Below, piece after piece: positions 52,121 to 57,612 of a DNA stretch of 64,000 nt (its first letter is position 1; every line of letters starts with the position of its first letter). The position numbers were made by a program, and so were the translations under genes. This DNA comes from Halogranum amylolyticum. GTDB lineage: Archaea; Halobacteriota; Halobacteria; Halobacteriales; Haloferacaceae. The DNA lies in contig NZ_FODV01000002.1 of NCBI RefSeq assembly GCF_900110465.1, forward strand, positions 1-64,000, in the 5' to 3' direction. The notes beneath the pieces are model-generated. The model did not search any database and had not been told where the DNA came from. It saw only the letters and a program-made list of their open reading frames with translations.

Positions 52121-52360
52121 CTACTCCAGCCGCTGGCCGGCCGTCTCGCGGTTTCTGAGTCGCTGGGCCTCGTCCCAGTCCTCGAAGATGCCGTACTCCG
52201 TCATCGTCGTCATCCCGGCGAGCGCCGCGCGGAGTTTGAGACCGACCAGCGGGATGTCGGCGACGGCGATGACGACGTCGGCCTCGATGACCGCTCCCTT
52301 CCGGAGGATGACGTCCACGAGGTCGACGAGCGCGTCGTCGTCAGACTTCGTCGGACGCAT
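52121..52360 (-). CDS. gvpM: Gas vesicle protein GvpM
   Basis: The 79-residue GvpA-related minor component starts [20 protein letters not shown]. The GvpA/J/M core is KGAVIEADVVIAVADIPLVG followed by LKLRAALAGMTTMTEYG. It is probably part of the nucleation complex at the vesicle tip with GvpF, G, H, J, K, L. The start at 52360 overlaps the gvpL stop by 20 bases; it is the last gene of gvpFGHIJKLM. Confidence 0.93.
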   Translation of the reverse strand: MRPTKSDDDALVDLVDVILRKGAVIEADVVIAVADIPLVGLKLRAALAGMTTMTEYGIFEDWDEAQRLRNRETAGQRLE

Positions 52361-53171
52361 CGGGTCCCTCCTCTCCGAGTTCGGGTGTGAACGTGTACGG
52401 CGGCCACGGACCGGTGAACCGGACCTCGATGCCGGGATCGGCGGCGACGTCGTCGAGCAGCAGTCCGACGGCCTCCTGTTCGTCGTCGGTCGCGAGGACG
52501 GCGAAGCGCGCCAGCACGTCGACCTCTTCGTCGGCCCCGCCGACGTCAAGGCCGACCGTCGACCGCTCGCCGAGGTCGACGAGCTCCGTCACCTCGCTCC
52601 CGATGCGCTCAGCGAGGTCGGCCGCCTCCGCGCGGCGCTGTTCGCTCAGCAGTTGGTCGAGACGCGTCTCGTACTGTTTGTTCAGGAGGAACCCCGTCCC
52701 TTCGTCGGCGGAGTCCCGACGCTCGGCGAGCTGCTGCAGTTCGTCGTCGGCCGCTTCAAGTTCCTCGCGTGCGGCGTCCTCGTCCCAGACGACCTCGATG
52801 CGGTACTCCCAGCGCCCGGCGAGCGCCTCGAGGTGGTCCGTCAGCGTCGCTTCCTCCTCGCGGAGCCACGACCGGACCGCCTCGTCGTCGCCGCGGACGA
52901 TCGTGTCGAACTGGAACGGCAGCGGCGTCCCGAACGCCTCGCCCGCGTCGTCGACGACCGACTGGTGGGCGAGGATCCACCGCTGGATCTCCGTCGCGGA
53001 GTCCGAGTCGTACAGGGAGCTGCAGTCGTGGACGACGGCGACGAGGCCCGCTTCACGGATCACGCGGACCTGCTCGTCCTCGAGTCCCGTCGTCGACAGC
53101 GACCCGTCGCCGTCGGTGACGACACAGTAGAGGTATCGCCCCTCGTCGAACGAGGTCTCGGGCTCACTCAC
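52341..53171 (-). CDS. gvpL: Gas vesicle protein GvpL
   Basis: A GvpF/GvpL-family protein of 276 residues: N-terminal [20 protein letters not shown], a coiled-coil middle ([20 protein letters not shown]), and C-terminal [16 protein letters not shown], which parallels the FTGPWAPYNFV end of GvpF. GvpL binds several accessory Gvps and is required for assembly. It starts 8 bases inside the end of gvpK and ends 20 bases inside gvpM, so translation is coupled. Confidence 0.94.
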
Positions 53172-53490
53172 GGGTCATCTCCCCCAGCACCGCGCCGCGG
53201 CGGTCGTGGTCCATCTGTTGAACGGCGTCCGAGACGAGCGAGTCGAGGTCGCCGCGCAGGCGGTCGACGTCGTCGTCGATCCCCTCTTCCTCTTTGAGTC
53301 GCTCCAGTTCGTCCTCCATCGCCGCGAGCTGTCGGCCGAGGCGCTCGATCTCCTCGTCCGTGAGCGACCCCGACTCCATCCGGCGGATCGCCTCCCGTTC
53401 GAGCGCGTCGACCAGCAGTTCGACGACGGTGACGACGAGCGTCGTCAACCCGTTGGTCGCCTCGTCGCCGTCGATGTCTATCGTCGTCAT
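53164..53490 (-). CDS. gvpK: Gas vesicle protein GvpK
   Basis: The 108-residue essential accessory protein shows GvpK blocks [40 protein letters not shown] and [18 protein letters not shown]. It overlaps gvpJ by 4 bases (ATGA) and gvpL by 8. Its precise role in assembly is not established, but deletion prevents vesicle formation in haloarchaea. Confidence 0.94.
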
Positions 53491-53963
53491 CGGTCGTCGG
53501 TGCCGTCTGTCTCCGTCGTCTGCTCGGCGGCCCGTTCGTCCGTCGTCTCGTCGTCTTCGACCTCGTCTGCGTCGGTCCCGTCGTCGGGTGACTCCGCTTC
53601 GTCGCTGGCGTCGGCGTCGGTGCCGGTCTCGACGACCGTCTCCTCGTCGGTCGTCTCTTCTTCTTCCTCGGGGTCGACGGTGCCGACGCGCGTCGACAGG
53701 CCGCGCTCGGGTGGTTTGCGGAGGTCGCGCCGCTGGGACGCCTCCTCGACGCGTTCCATGTCGGTCCCCTCGGGGAACTCCAGCCCGTACTGGGAGGCCG
53801 TCTCGAACGAGGCGATCGCCGCCCGGAGTTTGATGCCGAGCAGCTCCGTCTGTCCGACCGAGACGGCGATGTCGGCGTTGATGACGACGCCTTTGTCGAG
53901 GAGCATCTCCACGACGTCGGCGAGGCTGTCCTTCTCTCGGGTTGGGGCTGTTCCGTTAGTCAT
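53487..53963 (-). CDS. gvpJ: Gas vesicle protein GvpJ with acidic C-terminal tail
   Basis: A GvpA-related minor protein. The core [20 protein letters not shown] and [20 protein letters not shown] occupies residues about 13-62. The protein then continues to 158 residues through [18 protein letters not shown] and a long Asp/Glu/Thr tail. Typical GvpJ is about 110-115 residues, so the tail of roughly 45-50 residues is an addition. Start [13 protein letters not shown] at 53963; 8-base overlap with gvpI and 4-base with gvpK. Confidence 0.93.
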
Positions 53964-55062
53964 CGTCGTTTTCACTCCGTTCGTTCGCGTCGTCGAACCG
54001 CTGGCCGTAGATGCGCGGGCGGTTCGGCGCGTTCGAGTAGCGCGTCTCCTCGGGCACCGTCGAGAAGCGGGTCGATCCGCCGAAGTCCGACCGTGACGTG
54101 GGCATCGTCGAGACGGCGGTCGGGTTCCGCGAGTCCGGCTGTCCCGCCGGCTCGGTTCGCTCCTGGTTCTTCTCGACGATCTTCTCGAGTCGCTCACGGG
54201 CGTCGAGGATGCTCCCGCGGAACTCTCCGACCGAATCGCTGATCTGCTTCTGGATGGCCGCCTGCTTCGATTCGTCGGTCTCCAGCATCCCGAGTTCGGG
54301 TTTCGACAGTCCGTCGTCCTCGTCCGCGGCGTCGGCCGCCGCCTCCTCATCGTCACCGACGAGGTCGGCGGCGTCGTCAAGCAGCCCGTCGTCCGTCTCG
54401 TCGTCGTCGGCCGCCGCCTCCTCATCGTCGTCACCGACGAGGTCGGCGGCGTCGTCAAGCAGCCCGTCGTCCGTCTCGTCGCCGTCCGGCTCCTGCTCGA
54501 ACACGTCCTCGACGGCGTCGTCGAGCTCGCGTTTGTTCCGCCAGAACTCGCGGACGTCGACCGCGTCCCAGAGGTCGGTGAGTTCGATCAGTTCGTTGAG
54601 GTTCCGCAGTTCGATCGCCTGTTTCGGGTCGCCGCTGGCGACGGCGTCCGGCAGTTCGTCGGTGTCGACGGTGTCCGGGAGTTCGCTCGCGTCGATCGCG
54701 TCGGGGAGTTCCTCGAAGTCGACCGTTCCCAGCAACTCCTCGGCCTCGCTGGCGACGACGCGGAGATCCTCGAAGATCTCCGCGGCGCGTTCCTGCGACT
54801 CGGGGTCGTCGTCGAGGTCGAGCAGTTCGCGCAGGAGCGCCTCCGTCTCCTCGACGAGTTCGCCCGCATCGACGACGTTGTCGGTGGCCGCGTCGACCGC
54901 CTCCTCGACGGCATCTGGGGCGTGTTCGACGGTGACGACGTCCTCGACGTCGTCGTCTCCGTCCGTAGACTCCGATTCGTCTGTCGACTGCGACTCTCCG
55001 TCTCCGTCGGGCGTCTCCTCCTCTGTCGTCTGCTCTTCGTCGTCGGTAGTATCCTCACTCAT
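53956..55062 (-). CDS. gvpI: GvpI-position protein, enlarged and acidic (368 aa)
   Basis: Position between gvpH and gvpJ is that of gvpI, and the C-terminus (NPTAVSTMPTSRSDFGG, FSTVPEETRYSNAPNRPRIY, GQRF) looks like the conserved end of GvpI-type proteins, though this is by memory. Otherwise it is unusual: residues 1-50 are Asp/Glu/Ser-rich, a helical middle follows (about 60-180), then a tandem 25-residue acidic repeat (54334-54480). Classical GvpI is small and basic and is dispensable for vesicle formation. Overlaps both neighbours by 8 bases. Confidence 0.68.
   Translation of the reverse strand: MSEDTTDDEEQTTEEETPDGDGESQSTDESESTDGDDDVEDVVTVEHAPDAVEEAVDAATDNVVDAGELVEETEALLRELLDLDDDPESQERAAEIFEDLRVVASEAEELLGTVDFEELPDAIDASELPDTVDTDELPDAVASGDPKQAIELRNLNELIELTDLWDAVDVREFWRNKRELDDAVEDVFEQEPDGDETDDGLLDDAADLVGDDDEEAAADDDETDDGLLDDAADLVGDDEEAAADAADEDDGLSKPELGMLETDESKQAAIQKQISDSVGEFRGSILDARERLEKIVEKNQERTEPAGQPDSRNPTAVSTMPTSRSDFGGSTRFSTVPEETRYSNAPNRPRIYGQRFDDANERSENDDD
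54334..54480 (-). repeat. 75-bp tandem repeat in the gvpI-position gene
   Basis: Two near-identical units follow each other with period about 75 bases. Each encodes DETDDGLLDDAADLVGDD plus EEAAAD-type residues; the units differ mainly by one extra Asp codon. The repeat is in frame and lies in the acidic linker of the 368-residue protein, a likely site of length variation between strains. Confidence 0.8.
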
Positions 55063-55552
55063 GGGTCTGGTCTTCCTCGGCTTCGAGGTGGAGTTCGAGT
55101 ATGCCGTTTCGGTACGCGCCCGCGACGACCGTCAGTCCGCGACGAGGCATGTCGACGCGCGTGAAGACGGTGTCGTCAGTGCTGTCGTCTGTGCCGACGA
55201 CGAGCGTCCGTCCGTCGACGCCGGTGACGACCGTGTGGCCCTCGGCCTCCGGCAGGTCCAGGTGGACGATGAACCCCTCGTCGGTCTCGCGGATGCTCGT
55301 CGGCGAGTCCGGCGACACCTCCGGACGCGGCGTCCGCTCGTCCATCTCGTCGTGACGGGCGTGTCCGATGTGGATGGAGTAGTCAGCGATGCCACGGTCG
55401 GAGCTCACGCGTCCCCGTCGGGTCGACTCGCCCTGCTGTTCCATCTCCTGAAGCGTCTCCAGGAAGCGACGGAGCGAGCCGAGAATCCCGCTCTCGCGGT
55501 CGGGTCGATCCTCCGGGCTGTCGTCCGATCTGTCGGGTGTGTCGTTCGTCAT
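55055..55552 (-). CDS. gvpH: Gas vesicle protein GvpH (Hsp20-like)
   Basis: The 165-residue protein has an N-terminal helix (SGILGSLRRFLETLQEMEQQ), an alpha-crystallin-like beta sandwich (EGFIVHLDLPEAEGHTVVTG, VDGRTLVVGTDDSTD) and the terminal GILELHLEAEEDQ, which parallels the small-heat-shock end. GvpH stabilises other Gvps but is dispensable in known systems. Overlaps gvpG by 4 and gvpI by 8 bases. Confidence 0.92.
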   Translation of the reverse strand: MTNDTPDRSDDSPEDRPDRESGILGSLRRFLETLQEMEQQGESTRRGRVSSDRGIADYSIHIGHARHDEMDERTPRPEVSPDSPTSIRETDEGFIVHLDLPEAEGHTVVTGVDGRTLVVGTDDSTDDTVFTRVDMPRRGLTVVAGAYRNGILELHLEAEEDQTHE

Positions 55553-55800
55553 CGTTTCACCTCGACTCTCCCCTGGAGGTTCTCGTGGGCCGCCTCGGCG
55601 ACCTCCAATCGTTCCTCCAGTTCGGTTCGTCGCTCGCGGTACTCGGCCTCGGAGCGCTCGCCGAGTTCGTAGAGCAGTTGGTTCTCCTTGAGCTCGTCGC
55701 GGATCGCGTCGAGGTCGTGGATCTCTTCGACCGCCATCGAGTGGATGGTGTTGAGCAGCGAGACGAACGGCTTGAGGAGGAGGTCGTCGACGAGGAGCAT
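55549..55800 (-). CDS. gvpG: Gas vesicle protein GvpG
   Basis: The 83-residue protein starts MLLVDDLLLKPFVSLLNTIH and continues as a long helix (LDAIRDELKENQLLYELGER, RRTELEERLEVAEAA), the usual GvpG pattern. It is one of the essential accessory proteins. It begins one base after the gvpF stop and overlaps gvpH by 4 bases. Confidence 0.93.
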   Translation of the reverse strand: MLLVDDLLLKPFVSLLNTIHSMAVEEIHDLDAIRDELKENQLLYELGERSEAEYRERRTELEERLEVAEAAHENLQGRVEVKR

Positions 55801-55801
55801 C

Positions 55802-56428
55802 TCACTGTGCCGCCCCGATCTCGATGTCGACGAAGTTGTACGGCGCCCATGGGCCGCTGTACTGGACCGAGAGGTCCTCGTAGTCGTCCCGAACCGCCTG
55901 GACGGCCTCCGAGAACGCCTCCTGGTCGTCGTAGTCGACGAGGTACGCCCGGTTCAACACGAGCCGGTCGCTGAAGAGGTCGTTCTTGACGTCACGCTCT
56001 GCGGCCGCCGTGAGTCGGTCGGCGACGTCCTGGAGGATCTCCTCGTCGACGGTCTCGCCCTCGTCGACGACGACTTTGACGCCGAGTTCGACCATCCCGT
56101 CGACGTCGAGCAGTGCCTTCCGGAACGCGCGACGGCCGCTCCGGAGGACGCTCTTGAGCGTCCGTCCGGTCTTGAACACCATCCCGAACTGCATCGGGAC
56201 GACGGTGCGGCCGTCGCCGGCCTCGATGACTTCGCGAAGCACCTCGTCGTGTGCGCGGACGTTCTCGTCCGACCGTTCGGGTTCGAGCTCGTCGATGTCG
56301 CTGACGACGGCCGACAGCGTCCGGTACTGGACCGTCCGGATCGGCGTCCCACCGTTGACGCCCGAGACGTCCAGTTCGAACTCCTCGTCGTCGACGACGC
56401 CGTAGGTGTAGAGATGATTTTCACTCAT
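55802..56428 (-). CDS. gvpF: Gas vesicle protein GvpF
   Basis: The first gene of the minus-strand operon, 208 residues. N-terminal domain: HLYTYGVVDDEEFELDVSGV and TLSAVVSDIDELEPERSD; then VVPMQFGMVFKTGRTLKSVL, and a C-terminal half with NDLFSDRLVLNRAYLVDYDD and SGPWAPYNFVDIEI. GvpF contacts GvpA and starts aggregate-free assembly in haloarchaeal studies. ATG 56428 is 118 bases from the divergent gvpA start. Confidence 0.95.
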   Translation of the reverse strand: MSENHLYTYGVVDDEEFELDVSGVNGGTPIRTVQYRTLSAVVSDIDELEPERSDENVRAHDEVLREVIEAGDGRTVVPMQFGMVFKTGRTLKSVLRSGRRAFRKALLDVDGMVELGVKVVVDEGETVDEEILQDVADRLTAAAERDVKNDLFSDRLVLNRAYLVDYDDQEAFSEAVQAVRDDYEDLSVQYSGPWAPYNFVDIEIGAAQ

Positions 56429-56546
56429 GGGGCCACGCTATCGGTATAGCTTCTCCCAGCGCACGGGTATGGCTTTCGGCCGGCGGCGGAGACTGTGAGT
56501 AGAGACGGCCAGTGTAGTTAAAAGGGAGGCAAGAGTCGACCCTAGT
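56429..56546. promoter_or_regulatory. Divergent gvpF/gvpA promoter region
   Basis: On the + strand GTTAAAAG at 56517-56524 is a weak TATA about 27 bases before the gvpA ATG, predicting a leaderless or near-leaderless transcript. On the minus strand no strong TATA is placed correctly for gvpF; GCTATACC at 56443-56450 is too close and a weaker candidate lies near 56465. I do not see the paired GvpE activator sites known from other haloarchaea, and no gvpE gene is present in the window. Confidence 0.45.
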
Positions 56547-56861
56547 ATGCCCGCATCAGCATCACCAAACTCGTCAAGCCTCGCGGAAGTGCTCGACCGC
56601 ATCCTCGACAAGGGGATCGTCATCGACGTTTGGGCACGGATCTCCGTCGTCGGTATCGAGATCCTGACGATCGAGGCGCGTGTCGTCGCCGCGTCGGTCG
56701 ACACGTTCCTGACGTACGCCTCCGAGATATCGAAGATAGAGCAAGCCACCCAGACTGGCGACCTGGACGACATCCGCGACCTCGAGATCGAGACGACCTC
56801 GGCCCGGAAACACGAGCAGACGATCGAGAAGAGCCGAGCGGGCGTCGAAGCGTCGTCCTAA
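56547..56861 (+). CDS. gvpA: Gas vesicle structural protein GvpA with C-terminal extension
   Basis: The rib-forming shell protein. Residues 10-65 ([56 protein letters not shown]) are nearly identical to known haloarchaeal GvpA. The protein is 104 residues rather than the usual 75-80: after EQA it runs [20 protein letters not shown] and a Lys/Glu/Ser tail. The tail would lie on the vesicle surface. Followed by gvpO after 43 bases; no gvpC or gvpN lies between. Confidence 0.95.
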
Positions 56862-56904: not shown

Positions 56905-57612
56905 GTGACAACGGACATAGACGAATCGGCAGATATCGAATCAATCGACGGCATCGGGCCGAAGACAGCGGAGGCACTGGCGGACGCAGGCGTCGAGACG
57001 GTCGGAGATCTGCGCTCGATCGACCGGAGCGAACTGTACGATATCGAGGGCATCGGTGCGGCGACGGCGTCGCAGCTCTTCTCATTCGTCGACGGGGACA
57101 CGTCGGACGGAGACGACGAGACCCGAGAAGGCGCCGAGTCCGACGAGGAAGAGTCTGAAACCGACTCGGAGACCGAAGGTGACGAATCCGAATCTGACTC
57201 GGAGACCGACGCCGACGCCGAGTCCAGCAGTGACGAATCCGCCCCCGACTCGGAGGCCGACGCCGACGCCGAGACCGAAGGTGACGACGAAGACGTGGCA
57301 GACGACACAGCTACAGACGACACGACCGACGACGGAGCGTCGACGGGATCGGTCGGCTTGCTCGACATCCGCAACCAGACCGTCGAGTTGGCCCCCGACC
57401 TCATCAACCGAGACCTCGACGGGATCATCGAGGTGACGCAGCGCGGCGACCAGTGGGTGTCGGTCGTCGAGATGATCGAACGGAAGTCCGTGCCGGACAC
57501 GCAGGACATCCTCGGCCGGTACGAACTGGAGTTCGACGAGGCGGGGACGCTCACGGGGTATCGCCGCGTCAACCGCTACCGACGCAACGAGTCGAACCCC
57601 GACGAGTTCTGA
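56905..57612 (+). CDS. gvpO: GvpO fused to an N-terminal helix-hairpin-helix domain
   Basis: The C-terminal about 85 residues (LLDIRNQTVELAPDLINRDL, GIIEVTQRGDQWVSVVEMIE, YELEFDEAGTLTGYRRVNRY) are the GvpO domain. The N-terminal 60 residues (IDGIGPKTAEALADAGVETV, GDLRSIDRSELYDIEGIG) are a helix-hairpin-helix module of the Rad51-N-terminal/HhH type, normally DNA-binding. The two are joined by an acidic linker (about 65-145) with DSETEGDESESDSETD-like repeats. Standard GvpO is about 120-140 residues and lacks this module. GTG 56905 is the start; no ATG occurs before the HhH domain. GvpO is essential and affects gvp expression in known systems. Confidence 0.92.
   Translation: MTTDIDESADIESIDGIGPKTAEALADAGVETVGDLRSIDRSELYDIEGIGAATASQLFSFVDGDTSDGDDETREGAESDEEESETDSETEGDESESDSETDADAESSSDESAPDSEADADAETEGDDEDVADDTATDDTTDDGASTGSVGLLDIRNQTVELAPDLINRDLDGIIEVTQRGDQWVSVVEMIERKSVPDTQDILGRYELEFDEAGTLTGYRRVNRYRRNESNPDEF

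Follow-up and report, generated by a model that had tools for sequence, protein, structure and literature searches.

The gvpO gene of Halogranum amylolyticum raises the question of what a helix-hairpin-helix (HhH) domain does at the front of a gas-vesicle protein. The gene lies at 56905-57612 (+) of a window comprising the first 64,000 nucleotides of contig NZ_FODV01000002.1; it starts with GTG and encodes 235 amino acids. The N-terminal HHH_5 domain occupies residues 10-58 (56932-57078, +), with GIG hairpins at residues 16-18 and 49-51, and is matched by Pfam at 51.5 bits (E 1.4e-13, cut-off 27), or 54.2 bits in a search of the organism's own genome. An acidic linker rich in D, E, S and T (about residues 62-144; 57088-57336, +; low pLDDT, dN/dS 0.44) leads to the GvpO domain (PF05800, residues 145-230; 57337-57594, +; 82.9 bits, E 1.6e-23, cut-off 25). 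Both matches are far above chance level and bear out the initial annotation, which had described an N-terminal HhH and an acidic linker on GvpO. The single-sequence structure model places helices at residues 19-27, 33-38, 41-44 and 52-63; in predictions from one and from three sequences the HhH helices are as expected, with pLDDT of about 70-88 over residues 1-60, and the GvpO domain is poorly predicted.

The gene shares its C-terminal GvpO domain (PF05800) and its place beside gvpA in a gvp cluster with the gvpO of Halobacterium salinarum and others. The gvpA gene (56547-56861, +; PF00741, halo_gas_GvpA) is directly upstream, and gvpF to gvpM are encoded on the opposite strand. The divergent intergenic region between gvpF and gvpA measures 118 bp (56429-56546). 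The opposite strand contains gvpF (55802-56428; PF06386), gvpG (55549-55800), gvpH (55055-55552; PF05455, a weak match of 28.1 bits against a cut-off of 22), a gvpI-like gene (53956-55062), gvpJ (53487-53930, start uncertain), gvpK (53164-53490), gvpL (52341-53171) and gvpM (52121-52477, true start downstream inside the frame). Profile matches identify gvpG, gvpJ, gvpK, gvpL and gvpM. The gvpI-like gene is without a Pfam match; its assignment relies on its place in the cluster and on matches with GvpI from other clusters. Its product is 368 residues long, with an extended acidic N-terminal region, against 144 residues in the classical GvpI of L091.

No gvpC, gvpN, gvpD or gvpE was found in the gvp cluster of the window. 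A search of the whole genome with GvpD, GvpE and GvpN of a classical cluster gave no match for GvpE or GvpN and at best 21.6 bits for GvpD, where 13 GvpD genes near GvpO in other haloarchaea reach 417-1204 bits. The initial annotation was thus correct that gvpD and gvpE are missing, and the genome lacks the genes for regulation of the GvpD/GvpE type. Two GvpD-family matches (29.4 and 24.9 bits) were rejected as GvpD, scoring 26 and 19 bits against a true GvpD; by their appearance they are presumably KaiC-type ATPases. The GvpE upstream element, searched as a sequence pattern, had no match in the window, the gvpF-gvpA intergenic region included. A bacterial promoter scan of the gvp region, a method ill-suited to archaea, returned nothing.

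The surroundings of GvpO genes were surveyed at two levels. In the class, 391 genomes were sampled out of a larger group, and 161 of them had GvpO; in the family Haloferacaceae all 170 genomes were covered, 44 of them with GvpO. Counting the window, the survey yielded 185 GvpO frames from 181 sources, with sites in G134, G195 and G226 left out. Proteins were sorted by N-terminus with regular expressions and by eye, and L149, L189 and L224 were moved by hand from 'none' to Cys/His. An N-terminal module is present on 146 of the 185 proteins: 119 carry a Cys/His module of DUF5763 type, as assigned with a composite query, 21 a helical module and six the HhH, which leaves 39 with none. The view that GvpO normally consists of one domain of 120-140 residues therefore fails for the haloarchaea as a whole; it is true of the classical, well-studied clusters and not of most haloarchaeal GvpO. 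The helical (TVDEL-like) module has no Pfam match and no relative in the PDB (best E 0.33), and the Cys/His module no convincing one (best E 0.11, SAP30L). A literature search found nothing on DUF5763, and no work on gvpO together with the helix-hairpin-helix among the matches listed.

Several proteins of the survey depart from these patterns. The Cys/His module of L149 has arginine in place of its first cysteine, and L202 and L213 have very long acidic N-terminal extensions behind a helical module, with more than 300 residues ahead of the GvpO domain. Six GvpO (L054, L055, L078, L081, L082 and L121) are orphan paralogues: the sequence fetched around each shows no further gvp gene, and their genomes hold another gvpO elsewhere.

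A search of gvpO orthologues for the same fusion, proposed in the initial annotation, did recover it beyond the window, but sporadically, in six of the 185 GvpO and in 4 of 52 within the family. The six are the window protein, those of Halogranum rubrum (L051) and Halorubrum sp. Hd13 (L075), one from another genus of the same family (L052) and two from one genus of another family (L083 and L084). A contig scan with the single HhH-GvpO protein as query found no relative; with an alignment as query it returned the fusion in Halogranum rubrum CGMCC 1.7738 (L250) and Halorubrum sp. Hd13 (L251). The fusion is therefore no assembly accident. The glycines of the second hairpin are invariant in all six rows of the HhH alignment, and L052 has a degenerate first hairpin, GID in place of GIG. 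The L084 row begins inside the domain, so its 44% identity is a partial value. Beside one HhH-gvpO, at G274:C1:1206017-1207030, lies a gvpN match with one in-frame TGA, a possible pseudogene.

The HhH part of GvpO is under purifying selection, to judge from codon comparisons. Between the window and Halogranum rubrum (L051), 38 of 52 HhH residues are identical, and dN/dS is 0.157 for the HhH, 0.436 for the linker and 0.085 for the GvpO domain. The linker evolves fast relative to both flanking domains. The other two pairs compared gave 0.24 and 0.29 for the HhH; all these values are simple Nei-Gojobori counts over short stretches, with dS near 0.8-1.0 in the HhH. They bear on the reading in which GvpO acquired by chance one of the HhH domains common among haloarchaea, the linker merely aiding solubility in high salt. 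Such an origin would suit the sporadic distribution and the frequency of HHH_5 in the genome (19 matches). The low dN/dS in all three pairs and the retention of the fusion in two genomes of the Halogranum group and a Halorubrum make it distinctly unlikely.

The modules can also be followed on the tree of the GvpO domain, built from 94 columns and 185 rows, with 80 of its 180 inner branches open. On this tree the four N-terminal classes need 14 changes, against a mean of 60.7 when shuffled, which indicates that modules were swapped several times and yet inherited within lineages. Independent origins of the six HhH-GvpO were considered and not accepted: a quick tree set them in three places, while the AU test does not reject a single clade and a better tree was found with all six together (p 0.83). 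By pairwise scores, the HhH of the two proteins of family f6 (L083 and L084) is closer to the ribosomal protein L32e than to the HhH of the window. The number of origins is probably between one and three.

The initial annotation had proposed that the HhH compensates for the missing gvpD and gvpE. In the survey, 'absent' for gvpC, gvpD, gvpE and gvpN refers to the sequence fetched around each GvpO, which extends less than 4.5 kb upstream for four GvpO, all of class 'none'. Both gvpD and gvpE are near 14 of the 185 GvpO; all 14 are without a module and belong to one clade of 25 rows, the classical gvpACNO/gvpDE-type clade, which has no modules. The plain GvpO of this clade sits with gvpC and gvpN and often gvpDE, whereas the window protein has an HhH and a long acidic linker and none of the four genes. 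All 25 GvpO with gvpC nearby are module-free, and none of the 146 module-bearing GvpO has gvpC, gvpD or gvpE nearby. At first sight this cross-table favours a trade-off between the module and gvpC/D/E. The GvpO with gvpC or gvpD form a single clade, however, so the link between module and gvpC absence rests on about one event, and module presence is confounded by ancestry with loss of gvpC/D/E.

The counts do not fit a substitute for GvpD and GvpE. Clusters without gvpDE are the norm (171 of 185), and only six of these carry the HhH; 119 have the Cys/His module, 21 the helical module and 25 none, the module being other than HhH in 140 of the 146 module-bearing proteins. For 21 of the 25 module-free cases the upstream sequence reaches 4.5 kb or more. 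The 25 comprise 11 GvpO inside the gvpC/gvpD clade (8 with at least 4.5 kb upstream), still without a module, and 14 outside it (13 with enough sequence). Fourteen of all 39 module-free GvpO are in loci without gvpC or gvpN, and a module is thus not required by the reduced cluster. That other haloarchaeal clusters lack gvpDE, or both gvpC and gvpDE, was already published, according to part of one review (PMC4390858), and excerpts of two place several clusters without gvpC and gvpDE in species not seen making vesicles (PMC4390858, PMC9501494).

Direct control of transcription by HhH-GvpO, bound to the gvpF/gvpA intergenic region in place of GvpD and GvpE, is also very improbable. In its favour, that region is compact, and gvpD and gvpE are missing genome-wide in all six HhH genomes. 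There GvpD reaches at best 24 bits and GvpE 22.4 bits or no match, whereas the three control genomes G233, G072 and G391 give 321-1204 bits for GvpD and 54.6-412 bits for GvpE. The distribution of modules among the clusters without gvpDE argues against it. So does the nature of the domain, HhH being usually a non-specific binder of DNA. The statement that GvpO is known to influence gvp expression has no support in the part of one review consulted (PMC9501494), and in the excerpts used here neither review assigns GvpO a regulatory role (PMC4390858, PMC9501494).

The nearest relative of the HhH outside GvpO among PDB sequences is haloarchaeal L32e (37.9 bits, E 1.5e-8), followed by topoisomerase V (23.1 bits) and Rad51/RadA (22.4 bits or less). 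Pairwise scoring of four GvpO HhH queries ranked L32e first among non-GvpO matches each time, and the L32e of the organism's own genome has the same layout of N-terminal HHH_5 and acidic linker, differing by its C-terminal ribosomal L32e domain. The NCBIfam L32e model covers residues 5-91, the HhH and linker, at 38 bits, far under its cut-off of 239 bits. The HhH of GvpO thus resembles the extension of L32e more closely than the HhH domains of DNA repair. From this likeness it might be supposed that the HhH and linker hold GvpO near translating gvpA mRNA, as an L32e-type extension docked on ribosome or RNA, and aid capture of the hydrophobic GvpA. The likeness may also reflect just shared origin or halophilic composition, and this role is given only a small chance.

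The HhH of the window has a net charge of -8 over 49 residues, which puts it towards the acidic extreme among the 19 HHH_5 matches in its genome; across the six HhH-GvpO the domain, about 50 residues long, ranges from -5 to -11. Two proteins of this genome that do act on DNA, RadA and PolX (named by reading of the frames), are also acidic, with charges not far from that of the window HhH; composition speaks clearly neither for nor against DNA binding. In a Foldseek search with the HhH-GvpO model the matches were weak, the top ones being Y-family DNA polymerases over about 55 columns with E of about 0.007 or worse. Three further proteins of the genome, with no function assigned, have HHH_5 at or near the C-terminus (L238, L241 and L235); one has a weak PspA/IM30 match.

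By analogy with other inclusions, the nucleoid would be the most attractive partner for the HhH of GvpO. The domain would bind DNA non-specifically and tie nascent vesicles to the nucleoid, so that they are distributed through the cell and divided between the daughter cells. Two PhaC-type PHA synthases of the same genome (L232:1489-3036, -; L239:1489-3162, -) also carry HHH_5 at the C-terminus. According to part of one article, PhaC of Hfx. mediterranei has an HhH, and the HhH phasin PhaH of Caulobacter affects granule size and distribution, with an interaction with the nucleoid proposed (PMC12028471, citing Salinas et al. 2023). GvpO resembles these proteins in having the HhH on a builder of an intracellular inclusion. 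They are otherwise an unrelated enzyme or phasin, with no sequence relation past the HhH, and their nucleoid role is merely proposed. The Y-family polymerase matches point the same way, but at the E-values given above. The strongly acidic charge of the domain, tempered by that of RadA and PolX, the degenerate first hairpin of L052 and the closer sequence relation to L32e argue against tethering, and among the titles listed on gas vesicles, the nucleoid and segregation none concerned vesicle tethering. Tethering of vesicles to the nucleoid is therefore a possible but doubtful function. The wider proposition, that haloarchaea tether inclusions to the nucleoid through HhH domains, PHA granules by PhaC and gas vesicles by GvpO, and that the Cys/His and helical modules on other GvpO serve this end by different contacts, is unlikely.

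The explanation preferred here, with about even confidence, is that the HhH and acidic linker act as a docking or adaptor module, with the linker as flexible tether, and belong to a set of at least three module types able to replace one another on GvpO. It is suggested by the combination of a small module on an acidic tether, swapped in relatives and kept by selection, which is what would be expected of a docking site. The HhH looks like one among several interchangeable adaptors and not a stand-in for absent regulators. The N-terminus of GvpO would be a swap site in reduced haloarchaeal clusters, without gvpC, gvpD or gvpE, and would be occupied by a small module of one out of at least three unrelated kinds (DUF5763-type Cys/His, helical or HhH). 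The GvpO of most other haloarchaea has the same layout of small module, acidic linker and GvpO domain with no gvpC, gvpD or gvpE nearby, although its DUF5763-type and helical modules have no detected relation to the HhH.

To our knowledge, no binding partner is known for any module on GvpO. The module would bind something, the partner presumably being nucleic acid or a nucleic-acid-protein complex. The conserved C-terminal GvpO domain would work in vesicle assembly, and the N-terminal module would join the assembly complex to this second partner outside the shell. Contacts on the assembly side are reported in parts of two articles: Halobacterium GvpO binds GvpA, GvpC, GvpN and itself (PMC9372576), and GvpF and GvpO bind GvpA monomers and GvpL (PMC9501494).

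In parts of two reviews GvpO is described as essential and of unknown function (PMC4390858, PMC9501494). The wider pattern, in which small modules are exchanged at the N-terminus of GvpO, is what deserves pursuit, and the swap site offers a direct handle on this protein, as the module can be altered inside an otherwise fixed cluster. Together, GvpO and PhaC point to the HhH as a recurring add-on of haloarchaeal proteins that build inclusions. If the inclusion-tethering reading were true, GvpO would link the assembly of gas vesicles to their placement or inheritance.
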